Below are positions 4,639-26,578 of a stretch of 64,000 nucleotides of DNA, one piece after another. The DNA is from Methylophilus sp. 42 (lineage in GTDB: Bacteria; Pseudomonadota; Gammaproteobacteria; Burkholderiales; Methylophilaceae). The position numbers and the translations under genes are program-made. Numbering within the stretch: position 1 is the first letter of the stretch; each line of letters starts with the position of its first letter. The notes under the pieces are model-generated. The model worked only from the letters and a program-made list of their open reading frames with translations. It did not search any database and was not told the DNA's origin. Location of the stretch: the NCBI RefSeq assembly GCF_000384155.1, contig NZ_KB913031.1, positions 310,001-374,000 on the forward strand. Reading direction: 5' to 3'.

Positions 4639-4752
4639 AATATTATGAACAATATATCGTTCATTATCTCAGTATGTTATTCAAAGATATACTAATTCTT
4701 TAAATATAACAGCTTGCCATTAATAGTATAAATACATGGCCCACTCCTAAAT

Positions 4753-4783
4753 GACCAATATATTGCGTGGTTATATATTGGTC
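4753..4783. promoter_or_regulatory. Operator-like dyad upstream of XRE gene
   Basis: Perfect 11-bp inverted repeat GACCAATATAT (4753-4763) and ATATATTGGTC (4773-4783) with a 9-bp spacer. It lies between divergent genes (4638 leftward, 4826 rightward), the usual place for an autoregulatory XRE operator. It also decides the start of the next gene: the first in-frame ATG (4751) would put the operator inside the coding sequence. Confidence 0.6.
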
Positions 4784-4825
4784 GGTAAGCAAATATTCAA
4801 GCTTCCTTTTGACTGGAAGTTTGCT

Positions 4826-5107
4826 GTGGATATTAAACAAGCATTTGGGAAAACTTTCGCAAAAGCAAGAAAGAGTGCGAAGTTGGTACAAGACGATTTT
4901 GAGCAGGTTAGCTCAAGGTCTTACATTAGCTATATTGAGCGGGGTAAGGTTTCAATTAGTTTGGAAAAGTTAGATGAATTGTCTGAAGTCGTTGGTCTGC
5001 ATCCCGTCTCTTTATTGTTTCAGACTTACTTATCAACTGACAAAGATAATTCTGCGTTAGATTTGATTTCTAGGATTATGGCGGATCTTAAAAGATTTGA
5101 AGAGTAA
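4826..5107 (+). CDS. XRE-family HTH transcriptional regulator (93 aa)
   Basis: The HTH_3 fold is clear: VDIKQAFGKTFAKARKSAKL, then QDDFEQVSSRSYISYIERGK (recognition helix and turn) and SISLEKLDELSEVVGLHPV. The frame is open from ATG 4751, but GTG 4826 has a GGAAG six bases upstream and gives a protein that begins directly at the HTH, as in most small XRE regulators. The earlier ATG lies against the operator dyad with no ribosome binding site. Length and lack of a ligand domain suggest a local repressor for the divergent operon at 3411-4638. It converges on the peptidase gene with a 173-bp gap that holds no clear feature. Confidence 0.75.
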   Translation: MDIKQAFGKTFAKARKSAKLVQDDFEQVSSRSYISYIERGKVSISLEKLDELSEVVGLHPVSLLFQTYLSTDKDNSALDLISRIMADLKRFEE

Positions 5108-5280: not shown

Positions 5281-6870
5281 TTAGGGCGTCCGGCCCCTGA
5301 TTGGCTCCAAAGGAGTGTTATCAGTGGTTTGAGTGCCCGACTTCACCAAGCCATCTTGGAACTGAAGGAATGTGCCAACCTCGATGATATCTAAGGGATA
5401 GTTTTTGTTTAGATAGAACATTAATATGGAGTTCGCAACTGTGTCGCCCGTTGGGTCGATTAACGCGAATGCTACTAAACTAGGGACTATGTTTTCTTTA
5501 TCGTGGGCACCGTAAACAGCTTTTAAGTGTAGCTCAAGTATCCATACTCGCTTAGGAAGATGCATCGTCCTAAGTTCGTCTTGCAGCTCTTTTGGCATAG
5601 TTGTTGTTGTTGCCCAGGTTCTGAGTTTCCGTTTTTCAACTAATAGAACTCTAATAGCAATATCTGATGCGGACAGTTCGAGTGCTTCTTTATCTGCAGC
5701 GGTAGCAAAGCCTTCATATATATCTGAAACGACAGTTAAACCAATACTTAACGCCTCCTCACCAGACATGAAAACATCAGCTGGTAACAATGGCAATGCG
5801 TACACCATTTGTTCCATTGAGTAACCTGTGCCACCTCCAGATGAAGAAGGAAACGGCATGTATGGACCAGAATTATCATTATTGATAATGAAGTCTGGAA
5901 TCCAACTCGAAGCATGTACTAACCTTAAATCTAGGCTTGCTGAATTTGAGACCTCTACCGTCTGGAATTCTGTGGTGTTGGCATTCCATGTATGGCCAAC
6001 TGCAACAACTGCATGTCCGCCAATTTTATGGATTAGTAGTAAAACGACTGGTATTTCAGATTCAATGTATGGGTGGATAGTTCGTTTTGCTGTTTGAACA
6101 TCAGCAGGATTCATGGCATCTAGGCTTTGGTTATGCCACTGCCCTAACCAAATAGAATGTGGAGAATAACCTGCTGACCTAATCGCTTCCATCATTTGAA
6201 TCTGAGTTAATCCTTGGCGATTCGGTTTGATACGTCCGTTGGCGTTATAGCGAGTAGCAGCATCTGTAATTTGTGCGGGATCGTGAGCTCGATCACCTTC
6301 CCGTTTACGGAGTGTTCTTAGGGCCATCCAAATGGAGGCTTGAGCACATGCGCCTACAGCATTATCTTGCTGCATAAATGGTGTTCCGAAGACAGACAAT
6401 TCTCTGCCCATAATATGCACAGGAAATTTATCGGCGCTTCGTATAAATCCAGGTACGACTTCTGAGCTTAAGATTGTCGCACCTACTGGACTCGTAATAA
6501 CTGGTCTGAGAGTAATAAAACCTAAATAATGTTCAGGTGGTGTCGAGTCAATATATTCCAGTTGGGTTAACTCGGTGGCTTTAGACTCTTTGAAGAAGTG
6601 CAGTCTTGTACAGTAGCGACTGACTTCATTGAATTGCTTGCTGTAGTACGAGCTATATTCTGCTAGAAAATCTGGATCAAGCACTTTGTGTTGAGCCATT
6701 ATGGTTATTGCGCCAGCCTGAAAAAGCGCTTCACAGCATTTTAGTAATGGATTCTGAGTGTCAACAGATTGTTGAGGTTTACGGCGTGAAATGGACTCAA
6801 GTTCTGAATATACAATACTCAGAAGAGAATTATAGTCCGTGATATTGTGAATTGTTATTCTTGGATCCAT
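5281..6870 (-). CDS. Papain/C39-like cysteine peptidase (529 aa)
   Basis: The central region has the cysteine-peptidase pattern: MQQDNAVGACAQASIWMAL around residue 190 (Q then C at a helix start) and IPVVLLLIHKIGGHAVVAVG around residue 280 (active-site His), followed by a strand with an Asn-rich turn. This spacing fits the papain-like C39 fold. N- and C-terminal regions (about 150 and 200 residues) are unassigned, and no signal peptide or membrane segment is seen, so it is probably cytoplasmic. The only usable start is ATG 6870, which directly follows the U-tract of a terminator hairpin and has no ribosome binding site. Neighbours are a 61-residue ORF and, further up, the Ubl/E1 operon, so a role in processing that Ubl is possible but unproven. 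Confidence 0.6.
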   Translation of the reverse strand: MDPRITIHNITDYNSLLSIVYSELESISRRKPQQSVDTQNPLLKCCEALFQAGAITIMAQHKVLDPDFLAEYSSYYSKQFNEVSRYCTRLHFFKESKATELTQLEYIDSTPPEHYLGFITLRPVITSPVGATILSSEVVPGFIRSADKFPVHIMGRELSVFGTPFMQQDNAVGACAQASIWMALRTLRKREGDRAHDPAQITDAATRYNANGRIKPNRQGLTQIQMMEAIRSAGYSPHSIWLGQWHNQSLDAMNPADVQTAKRTIHPYIESEIPVVLLLIHKIGGHAVVAVGHTWNANTTEFQTVEVSNSASLDLRLVHASSWIPDFIINNDNSGPYMPFPSSSGGGTGYSMEQMVYALPLLPADVFMSGEEALSIGLTVVSDIYEGFATAADKEALELSASDIAIRVLLVEKRKLRTWATTTTMPKELQDELRTMHLPKRVWILELHLKAVYGAHDKENIVPSLVAFALIDPTGDTVANSILMFYLNKNYPLDIIEVGTFLQFQDGLVKSGTQTTDNTPLEPIRGRTP

Positions 6871-7606: not shown

Positions 7607-8068
7607 TTATTGAAAAAAGCGAGATATTTTTCTGAAAAGAGTGATGATTAAATTCTGATCGATCTTCTCGGGCTGAGCGTTAGAGTTCGGACGATGATTC
7701 TCTTGCATATCGGCAACCTTGTAGTGCTGAGATTTTGCGTATTTGTCTCTTTTCCTTACTTCGTCGATTTCTTCTTTGGTAAATTTCCCAGACCATTTGA
7801 TGCTGCCATTTTTGATCCAGTAATGGGATTGACAAGGAAAGCTCCAATTCCCGATTGAAGGATGTAACGAAACATTCTCACCGTCAAACATTAGCTTCCA
7901 GTCAGTGGGGGATAGTGGTGTCACGACTTTTTCTCCGCAGCCACAACAACAGCTATGAATCGCTGTTCCATACGCCATGGAAACGTAAATGACTCCCTCT
8001 TCTAAAGAGGGAGGCATAAACTCTACGAACTCTGGTTTAAGAAATTTAGTTTTCATTTTCACATTCAC
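7607..8068 (-). CDS. DUF6527-like small metal-binding protein
   Basis: A 149-153-residue protein. Its core is GVIYVSMAYGTAIHSCCCGC, then GEKVVTPLSPTDWKLMFDG, SLHPSIGNWSFPCQSHYWI and GSIKWSG. The CxCGCG cluster plus FPCxSHYWI fits a small zinc-binding fold and is what I know as DUF6527, a family found beside Multi_ubiq and E1-like genes. Start is GTG 8068 or ATG 8056; both overlap the end of the E1 gene (stop 8046-8048), so translation is coupled. Its role in the pathway is not established; a metal-dependent partner or peptidase-like step is possible. The C-terminal 50 residues are polar and may be a flexible tail. Confidence 0.7.
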   Translation of the reverse strand: MNVKMKTKFLKPEFVEFMPPSLEEGVIYVSMAYGTAIHSCCCGCGEKVVTPLSPTDWKLMFDGENVSLHPSIGNWSFPCQSHYWIKNGSIKWSGKFTKEEIDEVRKRDKYAKSQHYKVADMQENHRPNSNAQPEKIDQNLIITLFRKISRFFQ

Positions 8069-9215
8069 TTAAGTACAAGTTTGTATCGACTGTGTAAGTC
8101 GAATGATGCTCGTTTTCGTGATCATGGTAAAAACCACTGAGTTTTTTCCATTTAATGACTGCAAGTGATGCGTTTAATGAGTTCAAATCCGCGATCTGAA
8201 TATTCTGTGCATACTCATCATCATCCCTGTCATGGAGCGATACTTTTCTAGCAACGTGGTCACGTTTGGTCTGGGTGCTTGTTGTGACACGTACTGTAGC
8301 AATTAAGGCATCGTTTATTGCTTGCACACCAATTCCAACATCTATAAAAGATGTACCGTCACCTTCAAGTTTTGCGATAAGCAGTTTTTTAATCTCTCCC
8401 TTATCAATGCATATGAAAACGAAATCAAAGTCAGGTAACTCATTGATGTTGGACTCATTGAGATATTCAGAATGCGCAATTATGTTTTTATGCATATTTG
8501 AATAGATGCTTCTGAAGTGATCTACTTTGAAGCTTTGTGCATTTAACTGCTCAAGACTAACTGCACCTGGCGCCCGAAAGGCATTGTGCTGTAGAAATTT
8601 ATCGCCATCATATAAATGAATTTCAGCCACAGGTGTTTTAGCTACTAAATCCAATACATATGATCCAGTGCCGCCAAGCCCAATAATCGCGATCTTTTTA
8701 TGTTTGAATTTATCGTTTATTGTTGAAATACCAGCTCTGCTAGACCATGAGTCTAGATAGTGAAAAACGGATTCAGAATCGACCGATTCAATAGTCTTAA
8801 ACGTACATGCACTCAATCCAGTTGGTGCTGAAATGATGTCGATATAGCGTTTCATTTTTTCGTAGTAATTGGGATAGCCGAAGCCATCACGAGGTTTACT
8901 AGAAAATGAATGGTTTATTTCAACACCTTCTGCCAAGGTTTGATTGTGGGATGCGTGTCTAAAGCCTTCGATAGGTGACCCATCTTTGTGGCAAGGGTAG
9001 TCACCTTTAAACATTCCCACATGGGTGTCAGGCTTGGTTGTGACATTGCCCGCAAGATGAAGGGTCGAAACCAAAGTGCCATACTTCAGTTCTCGGTTCG
9101 AGTTAATATAAGGTACGCCTGAAATCAATAAGTGGCCTGATTTTATTTGAACCTCATATCCTTCATCACGTAACCTTTTTAGGTCGGGACTATGATTTAT
9201 CAGTTGGTGTGACAT
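8046..9215 (-). CDS. E1/ThiF-type adenylyltransferase with DUF6791-like N-terminus
   Basis: ATG 9215 gives MSHQLINHSPDLKRLRDEGY, the typical DUF6791 opening, so I reject the upstream codon at 9257. Residues 1-150 form the DUF6791-like domain (VPYINSNRELKYGTLVSTL). Residues 170-330 form the ATP-binding E1 fold: KIAIIGLGGTGSYVLDLV (nucleotide loop), HLYDGDKFLQHNAFRAPG (acidic and Arg-finger positions) and FVFICIDKGEIKK (metal-binding Asp). No CxxC zinc pair is present, and no cysteine stands where canonical E1 enzymes hold the thioester cysteine. In the family such proteins adenylate a Ubl C-terminus. The gene overlaps the Ubl gene by 26 bp and the DUF6527-like gene by at least 11 bp, so the three act as one unit. 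Confidence 0.85.
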   Translation of the reverse strand: MSHQLINHSPDLKRLRDEGYEVQIKSGHLLISGVPYINSNRELKYGTLVSTLHLAGNVTTKPDTHVGMFKGDYPCHKDGSPIEGFRHASHNQTLAEGVEINHSFSSKPRDGFGYPNYYEKMKRYIDIISAPTGLSACTFKTIESVDSESVFHYLDSWSSRAGISTINDKFKHKKIAIIGLGGTGSYVLDLVAKTPVAEIHLYDGDKFLQHNAFRAPGAVSLEQLNAQSFKVDHFRSIYSNMHKNIIAHSEYLNESNINELPDFDFVFICIDKGEIKKLLIAKLEGDGTSFIDVGIGVQAINDALIATVRVTTSTQTKRDHVARKVSLHDRDDDEYAQNIQIADLNSLNASLAVIKWKKLSGFYHDHENEHHSTYTVDTNLYLSECENEN

Positions 9216-9471
9216 TGAATACCATGCCTTTCTTTGCTTTAACTGTATCGCCAACATCCATAGATCCTTGTTGATTAGAGGAGGGGCCTTTTCTGTATGT
9301 GACGGTGTAGATTACATTGCTACCAACAACCGCACCAGGGAAGCCTAGTTGAACCACCTCTAAATAGGTTAGATCTTTGTCTTCTACTGTATGCTGGGTA
9401 GCATTTACGATGATTGTAATTTCGTGGCCCTTTGCTTTGTCTGCTTGTGATTCTTTTTCAATTTCACTCAT
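9190..9471 (-). CDS. Ubiquitin-like protein, Multi_ubiq type (93 aa)
   Basis: After a charged 15-residue leader, residues 17-93 have the beta-grasp pattern of the Multi_ubiq family: HEITIIVNATQHTVEDKDLT, YLEVVQLGFPG, VIYTVTYRKGP and a C-terminal KKGMVFNVTPTDKS. Only one domain is present, though family members often carry tandem copies. The protein ends in TPTDKS, without a glycine or a di-glycine, so either another chemistry is used or it is not conjugated. Start ATG 9471 has GGAG six bases upstream. First gene of the Ubl-E1-DUF6527 operon, and divergent from the sigma-factor gene. Predicted cytoplasmic. Confidence 0.8.
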   Translation of the reverse strand: MSEIEKESQADKAKGHEITIIVNATQHTVEDKDLTYLEVVQLGFPGAVVGSNVIYTVTYRKGPSSNQQGSMDVGDTVKAKKGMVFNVTPTDKS

Positions 9472-9537
9472 GATGTTCTCCGTTAAAAACTATATTCATA
9501 TACTGCATAATTGAAAGGGCTACGAAAGGATGGCATT

Positions 9538-9570
9538 CAGACATTTAAAAAAAGAATATTTTTTTGTCTG
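9538..9570. promoter_or_regulatory. Dyad in the divergent Ubl / sigma-factor intergenic region
   Basis: CAGACA (9538-9543) and TGTCTG (9565-9570) flank an A-run and a T-run around the centre at about 9555, giving a near-symmetric element in the roughly 130-bp region between the two divergent start codons. Possible shared operator or promoter element. Confidence 0.4.
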
Positions 9571-9599
9571 CGACTGGGGTTTTTAGAGCCATACATTCT

Positions 9600-10187
9600 A
9601 TGGAACATAAATTGGCGCTGAGCGATAAAAATTTAGAAGATTTTTTAACCATATCTGAAATAAAGGTAGGCTTTGACGCTTTTACTGAAGCTCAATGGAT
9701 AAAGCTTGGTAAGACAGCAAATAACCTATGCAGAGGTTTGCCAATTGAGGGTGCTGATCTTTTACATATCGTGATCTGCAGAGCTCTTGAGGGTAGGCGG
9801 AGATGTCGAAGAGAGTTGCCGATGGAGGTCTTTATTTATCATGCAATGGAAAGTGTTGTGGATGCTTTTATTAAGAGGCGTAAATCAGACCCCTTGGAGA
9901 ACACGATACATCCATTAGATAGTGAGGATGCTATAGAACTGATGGATATGCTGGACAGCAGGATTGGCACACCTGAAGAAGAGATGATTGCCAACCAAAC
10001 ACTGCAAGCACTCAAACAGTTATTTGAGGGGGATGAAAGGTCCATGGAAATTTTGACTTATCAAATGGACAATTTGCAGCCCGCAGAAATACAGAAGCTA
10101 ATGGAATTAACACCCGTACAGTATGCAAGTGCCTTAAAGGCAATTAGGCGTAAGTATGACAAGTTAGGGTTACAGGAATCGTTATGA
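9600..10187 (+). CDS. Sigma-70-family (ECF-like) RNA polymerase sigma factor
   Basis: The frame is open from TTG 9564, but ATG 9600 (MEHKLALSDKNLEDF) is the likelier start; its ribosome binding site is weak. Region 2-like sequence is GADLLHIVICRALEGRRRCR followed by LPMEVFIYHAMESVVDAFIK, and the C-terminal part (LTYQMDNLQPAEIQKLMELT, then YASALKAIRRKYDKL) is a region-4 HTH for the -35 element. A short acidic linker lies between. About 195 residues is normal for ECF-type factors. It is divergent from the Ubl operon and overlaps the next gene as ATGA. It probably directs transcription of island genes, perhaps the Ubl operon. No anti-sigma membrane protein is seen. Confidence 0.75.
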   Translation: MEHKLALSDKNLEDFLTISEIKVGFDAFTEAQWIKLGKTANNLCRGLPIEGADLLHIVICRALEGRRRCRRELPMEVFIYHAMESVVDAFIKRRKSDPLENTIHPLDSEDAIELMDMLDSRIGTPEEEMIANQTLQALKQLFEGDERSMEILTYQMDNLQPAEIQKLMELTPVQYASALKAIRRKYDKLGLQESL

Positions 10188-10588
10188 CTAAACAATCAAA
10201 GCAATCTATTGAGCAGTTATTCAATATAGCTAAAGCGGTATCACATCAGGTGATAAAGCTGCCTGATAGAGAGGTACTAGATGAAGACAATGACTCTTTT
10301 ACGAAGAGTGAGGGCTTTATGGCGAAGAGAGCATATCTAAAAGCGCTCCAGACAGTAGGTGCCAAAGATACTAAGCAGGTTGAACCAAAGGTGCCAAGTT
10401 TCAATTTAGCGAATACTCTAATGAAGGGAGTGAGTGTAAAGGTGGCGCGGCAAAAACTCATGGGACTGAATGCGGCAAATGATCCCTCGTTACAATTAAT
10501 TGCGAATTCAGCCAACCTCTTGAATGATGAGGAAATATTAAAAACCTACCAAGCCCTTTTATCTGCAGGGCTATTGGATATCGGGTAA
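10184..10588 (+). CDS. Unknown protein coupled to the sigma factor (134 aa)
   Basis: ATG 10184 overlaps the sigma-factor stop as ATGA. The product begins MTKQSKQSIEQLFNIAKAVS, has a charged middle (LPDREVLDEDNDSFTKSEGF) and a helical C-terminus (NLLNDEEILKTYQALLSAGL). No membrane segment, so it is not a usual membrane-bound anti-sigma factor, although a soluble partner that restrains or supports the sigma factor would fit the coupling. I do not recognise the family. A 13-bp inverted repeat follows immediately after the stop. Confidence 0.55.
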   Translation: MTKQSKQSIEQLFNIAKAVSHQVIKLPDREVLDEDNDSFTKSEGFMAKRAYLKALQTVGAKDTKQVEPKVPSFNLANTLMKGVSVKVARQKLMGLNAANDPSLQLIANSANLLNDEEILKTYQALLSAGLLDIG

Positions 10589-10649: not shown

Positions 10650-10796
10650 ATGTGGCCAAATTTTGAGGGTTGAAATATTTGTTGTCGTCAGAAACTTACC
10701 TCAAGATTCAGCGTCACTATAAGTTGGTAAGGTTGCTAAAGTTTTGCAAACCATCTACCTTCGTAGCATGTAACTTCGGGTGTGTCCCACCAAACC

Positions 10797-10993
10797 CTAG
10801 TGCTTATGCTGGTGATGTAAATCAGGGAAATGCTGGTGACTGTGATTTAATGCCATATGTTCATGCGGGTGCATATGAGGCTCCGATCCATCCCAATCAA
10901 AATCATGTGTATGTTGATGGTGTTCGTCATGAGAGTGAATATGTTGATGACGTAATTCCCTGTGATGATGTAGGTGAGCATGATGTTCGGTTA
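10797..10993 (-). pseudogene. Remnant of a DMT transporter gene: histidine-rich tail only
   Basis: On the minus strand this 197-bp piece encodes the same His-rich C-terminal tail as the transporter at 13248-14303, ending in a stop (TAG) at the same place as the intact copy (TAA). About five mismatches separate it from 13252-13444 over 193 bp. Sequence beyond 10993 is unrelated, so the rest of the gene is gone. The plus-strand open frame over it is a by-product of the same repeat and occurs over both copies. Confidence 0.8.
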
Positions 10994-12895: not shown

Positions 12896-13247
12896 AGGCA
12901 AAAGGCATAAATATGTAATTTGTAGGAAAACCAAAACACGATTTTTGACTTTTGATAGCGCTAGATCTAGTGAATCAATAAGCGTGCGGATCAAAAATAC
13001 AACTGGATCAGCGAGTAAAATTATGAGAATTATTATATTCTTCAAATTTTTGACGATCTAATGTTTTTTAGGGTTCTCACCATACATCTTACGATAATAT
13101 TTTAGAAAAGGCTCATTCAAACTTAATTGAGATAATTATCACTCGCTTGAGAGAAGCATAAAATTGCCACGAGACGGAAATGAAACCATAAGCTGGCCGA
13201 GTGACATGAGCATAACTTGGTCTTGGGAAGGGTATATCCCACAAAAA
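12896..13247. other. 352-bp non-coding stretch between mgtC/sapB and the second repeat copy
   Basis: No ORF with a ribosome binding site on either strand. It is AT-rich. The palindrome CTAGATCTAG lies at about 12961. No terminator is evident for the convergent transporter gene. Confidence 0.5.
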
Positions 13248-13444
13248 TTAATGCTTATGTTGGTGATGCAAATCAGGGAAATGCTGGTGACTGTGACTTA
13301 ATGCCATATGTTCATGCGGGTGCACATGAGGCTCCGATCCATCCCAATCAAAATCATGTGTATGTTGATGGTGTTCGTCATGAGAGTGAATATGTTGATG
13401 ACGTAATTCCCTGTGATAATGTAGGTGAGCATGATGTTCGGTTA
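13248..13444 (-). repeat. Direct repeat copy B (intact transporter tail)
   Basis: Partner of 10797-10993 in the same orientation, offset 2451 bp, about 97% identical over 193 bp. The two copies bracket proQ, the ZIP-like gene and mgtC/sapB. Recombination between them would delete or circularise that 2.45-kb segment. Confidence 0.85.
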
Positions 13445-23447: not shown

Positions 23448-25145
23448 ATGACGATGCTTTCAAGTACTTTCAAAACAGGGATTGCAAAATACTTTTCTGT
23501 ACCGGAAACACAAACCAAGTGGATATTGGCAATTTCGTTATTCATTATGGTGACGGGCAACCTTTCCCTTTGCCAAAACTTGCTGAAAACATATCCAGTA
23601 AGTTTCCATAACCTACCTTTCCTGGCCTCTCTAATAACTTTCTTTTTTGCGACGATCGCTATCGTCTTTCAGATTCTTTGCATTGGCAGAACAACAGCAA
23701 AATGGATATTAGCCATATTGCTGATTGTTGCCTCTATCAACGCGTATTTTATGGATAGTTTTGGTGTGGTCATCGATCACACTATGATGGATAACGTAGC
23801 GCAAACTGACTTTAAGGAAATGCAAGGATTAATAAGCATTGAACTCTTGCTTAGGCTAGTTCTATTAGGCTGCATACCAGCCTACTTGGTCATCAAATTC
23901 TTTCCCAAAGGGTTGGCCTTCAAACAAGAAGTCAAAGGTCGACTCAAAGCGATTTCTGTTCTTGTGTTAACTGCCATCGTAGTCGTGGCACCATTCACTG
24001 CAGGTTATGCTTCGTTCATTAGAGAGCATAAGATTGTAAGGTTTTACGCAAACCCCACTTACTCCATTTACTCCGCTTACAATTACCTGAATCAAGAGGC
24101 AAAAGTTTACGAAGCACGTAATACAGTGCTCAAAACGATTGCTGGGGATGCAGTAAAAACCTCAACTACGGGCAATAAACGTAAGTTGATGATTATGGTG
24201 GTTGGTGAAACAGCTCGCTTTGACAGATTCTCACTCAACGGTTATCAGCGAATTACCAATCCCAACCTTGCAAACGCCAATGTGATTAGTTTCGATAACG
24301 TGTCCTCTTGCGGTACGTCCACAAGTGTTTCTGTGCCATGTATGTTTTCTTCTCTGGGTAAGAAAAATTACGATAAACAGGCAGCATTAAAGCAGGAGAA
24401 TGCCATTGATGTGCTTGCCAGGAATGGCGTCGATGTATTGTGGAGGGATAATAACTCCGACTCCAAAGGCGTTGCCTTAAGAGTTAAATATCAAAACTTC
24501 CAGTCCACAACATTGAACCCAGTCTGCGATCCAGAGTGCAGGGACATCGGCATGCTGGATGGCCTTGATAAACATATTCAATCTAAGAATGATAAAGACA
24601 TTTTGATCGTGCTGCATCAAATGGGAAACCATGGCCCTGAGTACTTCAGAAGATACCCCGCTGCCTTTGAGAAATTTAGCCCGGTTTGTAAATCCAAAGA
24701 GCTAAAAGATTGCACCAAACAGGAAATAGACAATTCTTACGACAATGCAATTCTCTATACAGATTACTTTTTGTCAGAGGTCATCAAGTTTTTAAAACCC
24801 TATGAAGAAAATTATGATGTTGGGATGATGTATATCGCGGACCATGGTGAGTCGCTCGGAGAATACGGGATGTATCTGCATGCAGCACCGGTGATGATTG
24901 CACCCAAAGAGCAAACTAAAATTCCACTGATAGTTTGGACTGGCAACTCATCTGCCTTTCCAGAAAACCACTTAAGGCAACATAAAAGTGCCGTGCTTAG
25001 CCATGATGATGTCTTCTGCTCATTGTTAGTAGCGTATGATTTCCGCTCCAGTATGTGCACGCCATACATGGAGGCTGCCAGACATCTACATAACTCATTA
25101 GACCATGATGCAGTTGCGACTGATAATAAGGGAGTCTCAAGCTAA
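23448..25145 (+). CDS. eptA: Phosphoethanolamine transferase, EptA/MCR family
   Basis: A 565-residue inner-membrane enzyme: five N-terminal membrane helices (residues 20-190), then a periplasmic alkaline-phosphatase-fold domain. Seen are the metal-binding VVGETARFDRFSLNGY, the nucleophile Thr in SCGTSTSVSVPCMF, YIADHGESLGEYGMYLHAAP with Asp/His/His metal ligands, and several Cys pairs (NPVCDPECRD). Family members transfer phosphoethanolamine from phosphatidylethanolamine to lipid A, making the surface less negative. I cannot tell an EptA from a sister lipid target. Start ATG 23448 (or 23454) follows a Fur-box-like site. It converges on the recombinase genes with an 11-bp gap, near the island's right end. 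Confidence 0.88.
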   Translation: MTMLSSTFKTGIAKYFSVPETQTKWILAISLFIMVTGNLSLCQNLLKTYPVSFHNLPFLASLITFFFATIAIVFQILCIGRTTAKWILAILLIVASINAYFMDSFGVVIDHTMMDNVAQTDFKEMQGLISIELLLRLVLLGCIPAYLVIKFFPKGLAFKQEVKGRLKAISVLVLTAIVVVAPFTAGYASFIREHKIVRFYANPTYSIYSAYNYLNQEAKVYEARNTVLKTIAGDAVKTSTTGNKRKLMIMVVGETARFDRFSLNGYQRITNPNLANANVISFDNVSSCGTSTSVSVPCMFSSLGKKNYDKQAALKQENAIDVLARNGVDVLWRDNNSDSKGVALRVKYQNFQSTTLNPVCDPECRDIGMLDGLDKHIQSKNDKDILIVLHQMGNHGPEYFRRYPAAFEKFSPVCKSKELKDCTKQEIDNSYDNAILYTDYFLSEVIKFLKPYEENYDVGMMYIADHGESLGEYGMYLHAAPVMIAPKEQTKIPLIVWTGNSSAFPENHLRQHKSAVLSHDDVFCSLLVAYDFRSSMCTPYMEAARHLHNSLDHDAVATDNKGVSS

Positions 25146-25156
25146 GTGATTTTTGA

Positions 25157-26578
25157 TTATGTAGCTTCAGTGATGTGGCAAGTATTTAGGTCATCTTCAA
25201 AAGCATCCAAATATTTTTGTATCTGTACCAATATTTCAGTTGGTGATGCTCCAGAATTAAGCTCTCCTGAGAGTTGTTTTAAAGTGTTCTGAAATGACTT
25301 AACAATTCTTTTGGTATTGACTACATTCAATGTATTTTTGAAGTTTGTAACTTCTTCAAATGCGAGATTTATGTAAACATCGAGTGAAGCAAGATTTGAA
25401 TGGCCGGTAAATTGTTGAACAATTTGTTTAATAGATTCAACTTCAAGTAGAGCGCGTCTAAAGCTATTAGGGTTATCAAACTCATGTTGTTCAATTAACG
25501 CCACAAATAATTTGGTAATAAATCTATGGCGAAACATATGAGGGCAACATTTTTCTACTATACCAGCTGCTTTTGAAAGTATTGAGATTTCCTGAGTTAT
25601 GGTGTTTGAACGGAGTTGCTTTCCCGTTCTTTCACTGATTAACACATATCCATCATCTTCTTTGAATCCACAAGTTGCACGTATAACACTGCGCCTATTT
25701 TTTTCTATGAACTCAAGTAAAAATTTCGCATCATGACTAGCAATTGGAATCATTCTATGCGCTACAGTGCCGCTTCCTTTTTTTATAGTAATTAGATTCA
25801 GTAGTGGTTTAGGCATGCTTGCAGCGATACGAACACTTTCACAAGTTAAGTCAGCAACCTCTGAACGGCGACCGCCAGTGATTTCTAAAAGCTTCAACAT
25901 GAGGTAGCGTCTCTTCCGTAAGAATATGGATGAGCTTGTTGGAAGTATCACCTTTCTAATTTTATCAATAGCTTCTGTTCCAATAGGTAGCCGCTTTTTT
26001 TGAGGGTCTGGAGTAGGAAATGCGCGATGAGTCCAATATTTCCTTGTTGGCTTTCCTTTTCCGGTGAAATGATTAGAGCTGACTTGTTTAATATAAAACT
26101 CTTTTTCCTCGGCTTTAATTTGACCATTGCGACCGATGAAGTTCTCAAGTTGATAAAGCCTTCCTACACATGCTAAAAACTCGAGACAATTACGGCCGAT
26201 AGCGATTACCGAATTTGAGTCTCGTGCAAATAATTCTGGCTGACGCTTTCTTTTTTCAGCTTGTAGCATTTTGATAAATTGGCAGAAGTGATTATCTGTC
26301 AGGTTTATCAATGAAATTCTGTTGTAAAAAGCATATCTTAAAAGATGACTTATATTGGTAGCGTAAGTGAGCAGGGTCCCGCCGCGATTTCTTCTAGAGA
26401 GCCCTTTATTGTAAAGTTCTAATATATAAACGTTAGCCTCAAGACACCACGTCCCGTTAGGCCAAGATATCATTGGAATATTTGTTGCATCTTGGGGGAT
26501 AACTCGATGTTGCTGATCAACATATAAGGGAAGCTGAAATTTATTGTCTGTGCTGTTATAAAGCTTAGATTTAATCAT
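25157..26578 (-). CDS. Tyrosine recombinase (473 aa), last gene of the mobility module
   Basis: The C-terminal half has all catalytic elements of the tyrosine-recombinase family: Arg in LEITGGRRSEVADL, Lys in TIKKGSGTVAHRMIP, His-x-x-Arg in CPHMFRHRF, His in FTGHSNLASL and Tyr in DVYINLA. The N-terminal 170 residues contain the SAM-like DNA-binding part. It probably catalyses excision and integration of the island. It lies 12 bp after the helper-like gene and ends 11 bp from eptA on the opposite strand. The order of large, large, small and medium genes recalls multi-recombinase modules such as Tn554 TnpABC, RIT elements and, by architecture, Gamma-Mobile-Trio islands; which one is not decided. 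Confidence 0.88.
   Translation of the reverse strand: MIKSKLYNSTDNKFQLPLYVDQQHRVIPQDATNIPMISWPNGTWCLEANVYILELYNKGLSRRNRGGTLLTYATNISHLLRYAFYNRISLINLTDNHFCQFIKMLQAEKRKRQPELFARDSNSVIAIGRNCLEFLACVGRLYQLENFIGRNGQIKAEEKEFYIKQVSSNHFTGKGKPTRKYWTHRAFPTPDPQKKRLPIGTEAIDKIRKVILPTSSSIFLRKRRYLMLKLLEITGGRRSEVADLTCESVRIAASMPKPLLNLITIKKGSGTVAHRMIPIASHDAKFLLEFIEKNRRSVIRATCGFKEDDGYVLISERTGKQLRSNTITQEISILSKAAGIVEKCCPHMFRHRFITKLFVALIEQHEFDNPNSFRRALLEVESIKQIVQQFTGHSNLASLDVYINLAFEEVTNFKNTLNVVNTKRIVKSFQNTLKQLSGELNSGASPTEILVQIQKYLDAFEDDLNTCHITEAT

Follow-up and report, generated by a model that had tools for sequence, protein, structure and literature searches.

A divergent sigma factor gene pair as candidate controller of a type 6e ubiquitin-like operon in Methylophilus sp. 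42

The operon and its divergent gene pair

We analysed a 64,000-nucleotide stretch of the Methylophilus sp. 42 genome (the window; contig NZ_KB913031.1, positions 310,001 to 374,000), in which genes for a ubiquitin-like protein (Ubl), an E1-like enzyme and a DUF6527 protein lie head-to-head with genes for a sigma factor of the extracytoplasmic function (ECF) type and a small partner protein. On balance we think it probable, though only modestly so, that this Ubl operon, which fits type 6e, is controlled by the divergent sigma-partner module, and that in relatives the partner-held sigma factor is freed by an M78 peptidase. The features of the locus are as follows.

7607..8056, minus strand: DUF6527 protein, putatively metal-binding (alternative GTG start at 8068); PF20137, E 1.3e-26
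8046..9215, minus strand: E1-like adenylating enzyme, 389 amino acids, N-terminal DUF6791 followed by ThiF; PF20590, E 1.1e-51, and PF00899, E 2e-10
9190..9471, minus strand: Ubl, 93 amino acids, single Multi_ubiq β-grasp domain; Pfam PF14452, E 6.7e-17
9538..9570, no strand: wide inverted repeat CAGACA-N21-TGTCTG between the Ubl and sigma genes, putative promoter or operator
9600..10187, plus strand: ECF-type sigma gene from ATG 9600 (TTG 9564 also open); weak TIGR02937 match and family profile
10184..10588, plus strand: 134-amino-acid partner, putative anti-sigma factor or tether; no Pfam or NCBIfam family, relatives at other loci
10778..10993, no strand: 216-bp copy of the 3′ end of an EamA-type transporter gene, 94% identical to 13230-13444

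The Ubl and E1 genes overlap by 26 nucleotides. The overlap of the E1 and DUF6527 genes is 23 nucleotides with the GTG start and 11 with the in-frame ATG at 8056, which agrees better with the DUF6527 relatives than does GTG 8068. The sigma and partner genes overlap by four nucleotides (10184-10187), and the pair is head-to-head with the Ubl operon. Against NCBIfam NF004805 the E1 scored 560 bits, above the cut-off of 352. A first-pass annotation, made from the sequence alone, had described overlapping genes for a Multi_ubiq Ubl, a DUF6791/ThiF E1 and DUF6527, and a head-to-head sigma gene overlapping a 134-amino-acid gene. Both descriptions were confirmed, the former by Pfam matches and the coordinates of the open reading frames (ORFs), and the latter by the ORFs, their orientation and the four-nucleotide overlap.

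That annotation had named an E1 fold for 8046-9215 and a β-grasp for 9190-9471 as checks. The E1 fold was given by an AlphaFold (AF2) model with a pLDDT (predicted local distance difference test) score of 92.5, whose best fold match was BubCD of the Bub system (Z 24.4, root mean square deviation 2.5, 221 residues). BubCD is a fusion of JAB and E1 domains; the window E1 is instead preceded by DUF6791, and the BubCD match is confined to the E1 part. Fold matches span residues ~141-389, and DUF6791 lies outside the listed ranges, all of which begin at residue 141 or later. Residues H65, C75, D205, N211, R214, K230, D271 and Y335 are each invariant in 76/76 relatives; we take D205, N211, R214, K230 and D271 to be the adenylation residues. 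C75, within DUF6791, is the sole invariant cysteine of the E1 family, with the invariant H65 ten residues upstream. A similar His-Cys spacing is seen in E2 enzymes; we do not claim an E2-like role for H65 and C75.

The β-grasp of the Ubl was indicated by profile matches, on which the fold of the window protein rests: PF14452 and, for a profile of seven Ubls including that of the window, the multi-ubiquitin structure 9cd2 (E 1.1e-50). The window Ubl ends in TDKS and has no Gly-Gly. Serine is the last residue of 86 of the 87 Ubls surveyed below, and TDKS is the end in 65 of those; the solved protein 9cd2 likewise ends in TDKS. In DUF6527, residues H38, C40, C42, C44, C79 and H82 are invariant among 69 aligned sequences. 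For its model (pLDDT 91.7) no PDB entry scored below E 0.001 and the best second-look Z was 2.2, so the fold was left unassigned.

The composition of the operon had been suspected of being undescribed. It fits instead the operon type 6e described in 2006 by Iyer et al., for which the accessible part of that paper lists a metal-binding protein, one to three ubiquitin-like domains and an E1 whose N-terminus carries JAB or, in some members, a different domain (PMC1779556). The window Ubl has one domain and the E1 a non-JAB N-terminal domain, DUF6791 probably being Iyer's domain X. Type 6e metal-binding proteins have the signature C-x3-C-x35-38-H-x2-C, compared with C40-x3-C44 followed by C79-x2-H82 in the window DUF6527. 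The window operon has a sigma factor beside it, whereas the term "sigma factor" is absent from the accessible text of that paper. The core of the operon is thus already known; what is new is its control module.

Tested by itself against TIGR02937, the window sigma protein gave a match below the cut-off (E 9.5e-4, 18.8 bits; cut-off 42.9). A profile built from it and 11 relatives (A8) matched ECF sigma factors of known structure (SigH 5zx2, E 1.6e-5), and the match runs from region 2 towards region 4. We judge ATG 9600 to be a more likely start than TTG 9564. The partner matched no Pfam or NCBIfam family, and no helix-turn-helix (HTH) family was found for either protein by Pfam, NCBIfam or profile search. 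Relatives of the partner were found at L028, L037, L044, L057 and L038 and in genomes G014 and G048 (L and G denote loci and genomes, respectively).

Recurrence beside Ubl operons

To survey related loci, an E1-alignment scan was run over one genome per species, and the closest 80 loci, from many phyla, out of 472 relative-encoding stretches were taken. With seven plasmid loci these make 87, including two copies of the window's island. E1 and Ubl genes were present in 87/87 loci and DUF6527 in 86/87. An E1 relative was encoded on 115 of 72,556 plasmid records, and DUF6791 occurred in 8 of 398 sampled genomes of the phylum, the window's own among them. Neighbouring genes were tallied in 76 loci, after dropping L017 and L018 (the window's island), L053 (which matches L052) and L029 (which has the L026 layout). 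At least 3 kb of upstream sequence was available in 64 of the 76, and at least 3 kb of downstream sequence in 60.

A gene for an M78 peptidase (ImmA/IrrE, CapP-like) was found nearby in 46/76 relatives. Within ~3.3 kb, M78 genes were upstream and divergent (39), upstream on the same strand (6) or downstream (2). Among the 46 M78 loci an HTH gene was detected in 22 (by three simple profiles; L071 also has a sigma gene), a sigma gene in 14 and neither in 11, some of which are HTH-M78 fusions (Pfam, L043). Sigma genes were found nearby in 17 of the 76 loci, 14 of them with M78. The L045 and L021 sigma proteins were counted through profiles built from themselves or from the sigma group c16, and their assignment as sigma factors depends on weak NCBIfam matches. 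In the c16 group L065 matches both Sigma70_r2 and Sigma70_r4 above cut-off, and its relative L035 matches r4 alone, below cut-off. The seven other DUF6791 genomes of the phylum sample had M78 nearby in four (L117 under the Pfam cut-off), a sigma-like gene in two and neither in three.

In L028, L044, L057 and G048, the sigma, partner and M78 genes form a triad in which each overlaps the next by four nucleotides; of the arrangements seen, this resembles the window's module most. The nearest solved structure to the L028 M78 protein is CapP (7t5t, E 1.6e-8).

Two reverse searches, with the sigma protein and with the partner profile, used no Ubl sequence. At E 1e-3 or better, the window sigma matched a single protein in the 72,556 plasmid records, from Mesorhizobium (L105; 32% identical, E 2e-5). 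Its gene is annotated as "hypothetical", overlaps a 131-amino-acid gene and lies head-to-head with multiubiquitin and ThiF genes. The operon (L105 3285-8363) encodes a Ubl fused to Prok-E2_E, then a ThiF protein without a DUF6791 match and 23% identical to the window E1, then DUF6527; judged from these genes, it is a different 6e subtype. The sigma gene therefore appears to follow Ubl operons across subtypes. The 131-amino-acid gene of L105 was not recognised by the partner profile, and no M78 profile match was found there; a 478-amino-acid protein occupies the expected M78 place. Against 349 genomes of the order, the partner profile found the window, G048 (E 2.1e-25) and one weak match. In G048 the sigma-partner-M78 genes are divergent from Ubl, DUF6791-E1 and DUF6527 genes.

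Other searches returned little. Among 369 genomes of the class the partner was found in the window's genome only, and among the 398 of the phylum in the window and as two weak matches. The surroundings of the weak partner matches in G332 and G758 (10 kb covered) and G986 (3.2 kb covered) contained no sigma, M78 or Ubl gene. Searches of the plasmid records with the 134-amino-acid partner and with the L028 sigma and partner gave no match, and neither did a viral scan with the window sigma.

As both the plasmid match and G048 adjoin Ubl operons, the first-pass expectation that sigma genes stand beside such operons beyond chance was supported. An adjacency by chance, with the sigma pair controlling other genes, would be compatible with G014, which has the module without a Ubl operon; the reverse searches and the recurrence at other loci make it highly improbable.

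We then considered how regulators are distributed among the operons. On a tree of the 76 E1s, the sigma label (which pools several sigma groups) required 16 changes, compared with a mean of 16.5 for shuffled labels, and 218 of 500 shuffles were equally low. The label is thus scattered as shuffled labels are, which suggests that regulators have been swapped. The E1s of L058 and L065 are nearly identical; L065 has a sigma and an M78 gene, and L058 has genes that cluster with those for an AAA ATPase and a subtilase. There may be a further class of controller of immune-type operons: a small partner would hold a cytoplasmic sigma factor until an M78 protease that senses damage released it, so that Ubl operons belonging to at least two subtypes would come under positive control instead of being switched on through the loss of a repressor. 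M78 is fused to a UvrD helicase and a PD-(D/E)XK nuclease in some lineages, and the window's lineage would work the switch without it; this wider proposal we hold tentatively.

Several other gene arrangements were recorded in the survey. L006 (1920-5312), L007 (2792-6199), L118 and L119 encode a large upstream protein scoring as M78, with a distinct sigma-like gene nearby; in L006 M78, a UvrD helicase and PD-(D/E)XK are on one chain (Pfam). A gene pair (c6, c4) without a detected M78 gene lies upstream of the Ubl operon in L056, L058, L063, L078, L080, L081 and L093, and encodes an AAA ATPase and a subtilase as judged from the L081 copies. A gene for 652-686 amino acids separates E1 from DUF6527 in L031, L042, L054 and L067; in L054 it matches cytidine deaminase (E 3.2e-15). 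G008, from the same genus as the window, has two diverged E1 operons (L126, L127; E1 44% and 39% identical), one with a 416-amino-acid M78-like protein upstream. Near a plasmid-borne Ubl operon, L005 2097-4502 encodes an 801-amino-acid protein weakly similar to Piwi (E 4.5e-4, under cut-off).

The M78 neighbourhood has been noticed before, under what we take to be the older name of the family, DUF955. In the accessible part of a 2016 study, 70% of PF14452 proteins had as neighbours potential toxin-antitoxin loci whose toxins are DUF955 proteins, and such pairs were proposed to stabilise the PF14452 cassettes (PMC4963859). If that proposal held here, the upstream genes would be a toxin-antitoxin pair. 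The same M78 neighbourhood is present, and many loci are on mobile DNA (the 115 plasmid records and the shared island); a sigma factor would however be an odd antitoxin, and both the divergent position of the genes and the repeat that the loci share agree with a regulatory role. We regard this explanation as very improbable.

Regulation of related operons is also known. According to the available text of a 2026 study, 219 of 544 Bub operons lie beside CapW or CapH+CapP, and CapW, CapH+CapP and CapK+CapS all act by repressor release (PMC13373217). The window operon shares with Bub (BubA/BubB/BubCD; PDB 9ea4, 9eav) the best fold match of its E1 domain and a multi-ubiquitin-type Ubl. It differs in having DUF6527 and in being controlled by a sigma factor, as proposed here, rather than by HTH, WYL or CapK+CapS regulators. 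CapK+CapS is likewise a two-gene controller beside Ubl operons, and CapK resembles anti-sigma kinases, but the module consists of a GHKL kinase and a repressor with STAS and winged HTH domains, with no sigma factor named in it in the accessible text (PMC13373217). The CapH+CapP and PprI/DdrO switches resemble the loci described here in that relatives have an M78 gene beside a divergent transcription factor, and one triad M78 is closest to CapP; they differ in that a sigma factor and partner take the place of the HTH repressor, and in that the window's genome gave no M78 match. Bil operons include E2 and JAB genes, whereas a Pfam scan of ten window proteins in and around this operon gave no match of either kind. 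No description of a sigma-partner-M78 module beside Ubl operons was found in the literature searched, which did not include Gong 2025, Chambers 2024, Ye 2026 or Lau 2022.

The inverted repeat and the proposed switch

The intergenic repeat of the window was compared with the corresponding regions of the other loci. The pattern RGACR-N14-30-YGTCY occurs upstream of the divergent target in 7/12 sigma-family loci, 0/7 loci with other sigma genes and 3/65 remaining loci, whereas base shuffling predicts 0.26 repeat-bearing loci in the 12. L073, with too little upstream sequence, was omitted from the count, and the 65 include four loci with sigma-like genes, L071, L002, L006 and L007, in none of which the repeat is found. 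The seven repeat-bearing loci were all those then known to have a partner recognised by the profile. G048, found after the pattern was fixed, also carries the repeat, 31 nucleotides from the ORF start and 55 from a likelier ATG, making 8/8. The arms were longer than expected by chance in L028 (0/200 shuffles) and L038 (5/200). The stricter CAGACA-N18-26-TGTCTG occurs at six sites in the window's genome, and the cores of the other five are GC-richer. In G014 the repeat sits before a DUF3892 gene; the repeat therefore seems to go with the module. The sigma-partner-M78 genes there (L013 9727-11941) are divergent from this gene, which is possibly a stress or defence gene.

These results are consistent with the following pathway. 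The partner would keep the sigma factor inactive. According to the accessible text of PMC10904395, single-stranded DNA activates the M78 protein PprI, and likewise CapP, which then cleave repressors. By analogy with these two, in relatives the M78 protein of the same operon would cut the partner in response to a damage signal, probably single-stranded DNA, and free the sigma factor. The freed sigma factor would bring RNA polymerase to the inverted-repeat region and turn on the Ubl, E1 and DUF6527 genes. The E1 would then adenylate the Ubl C-terminus, leading to its putative attachment to targets. The window's lineage may have another trigger, or its switch may be stuck. The first-pass proposal of a sigma-controlled Ubl system survives as the best reading of the recurrence, the reverse searches and the shared repeat; the M78 peptidase, which belongs to the module at other loci, formed no part of that proposal. 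The association is not exclusive, G014 having no Ubl operon.

A different role for the sigma-like protein is the main rival of this working model. It could be a repressor that replaces a CapH-type HTH protein and binds the repeat, with or without the partner, M78 inactivating it in relatives. The sigma gene holds the divergent position taken elsewhere by HTH genes, the two occur together at one locus only (L071), and a repressor could well bind at a wide inverted repeat. On the other side, the sigma profile matches ECF factors from region 2 towards region 4, and L065 has both Sigma70 regions above cut-off, although L035 has only r4, below it. We judge a repressor distinctly improbable.

Several observations nevertheless weigh against control by a partner-held sigma factor. 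The usual spacing of ECF promoters is unlike that of the repeat, which may therefore be an operator. The repeat pattern was derived from the same sequences in which it was then counted, and it is missing from five of the 12 sigma-family loci (L059, L074, L092, L095 and L105). L028 and L037 are near-copies (161/170 upstream bases identical), and the arms are within chance in the window (71/200 shuffles as long) and in G014 (75/200). The repeat of G048 is nearer the start codon (31 or 55 nucleotides) than the others (67-89), and 76 of 2000 shuffles of that region give a repeat too. Sigma genes without a nearby M78 gene were found in L048, L074, L092 (cut by a contig end), L002 and L105; in L071 the sigma and M78 genes sit downstream; and 23/76 loci had no M78, HTH, sigma or WYL gene by profiles. 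G014, from the window's genus, has sigma-partner-M78 genes with no full-length E1 and no Ubl operon. The Ubl lacks a C-terminal glycine, and conjugation of such a Ubl is putative. Lastly, the window's genome yielded no M78 match, either to the Pfam model, for which control genomes were positive, or to a profile built from eight M78 proteins of these loci and run without a control.

The window's island

With no M78 match in the window's genome, either its trigger differs or its switch is broken or stuck. A search of the window with four M78 proteins (tblastn) gave a best E of 0.038. The 216-bp copy lies a short way after the partner gene, where M78 comes in relatives; its source is a gene for an EamA-type transporter (E 4.5e-32) with a His-rich tail. 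The main rival at this locus is accordingly that the switch is a broken remnant, M78 having been lost, perhaps through the 216-bp insertion, and the sigma-partner pair being locked or unregulated. The absence of an M78 match from the genome and the duplicated fragment directly after the partner speak for a remnant. However, sigma and partner are intact and 100% identical in four genomes, and L074 and L105 likewise have a sigma gene without a nearby M78. A remnant is rather unlikely in our estimation.

The operon lies in an island (~3300-29000) that is 97-100% identical, kilobase by kilobase (4-29 kb), in G005, another genome of the genus, with flanks of ~74-89% identity; G007 and G020, of the window's genus, share parts of the island at 100% identity. 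The island also carries genes of the metal-efflux and resistance-nodulation-division (RND) efflux types, a P-type ATPase, an EptA/EptB-type phosphoethanolamine transferase gene (23448-25145) and a tyrosine integrase (25157-26578). A 529-amino-acid gene downstream of the operon (5281-6870), with a C39-like match under the cut-off (E 0.0094), was weighed as a candidate for the missing protease and rejected as a core part. Its relatives in the ORFs of 86 loci were two identical island copies and the distant L076 (E 3.8e-12) only. A 118-amino-acid HTH gene (4751-5107) is divergent from it.

Bacterial Ubl operons are candidate immune pathways. If the proposed control is correct, the gating of a sigma factor by a protease would amount to positive switching and could in principle coordinate several promoters. 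As regulators are swapped between near-identical operons, the module could serve to find new defence genes, for which the DUF3892 gene of G014 may be compared.

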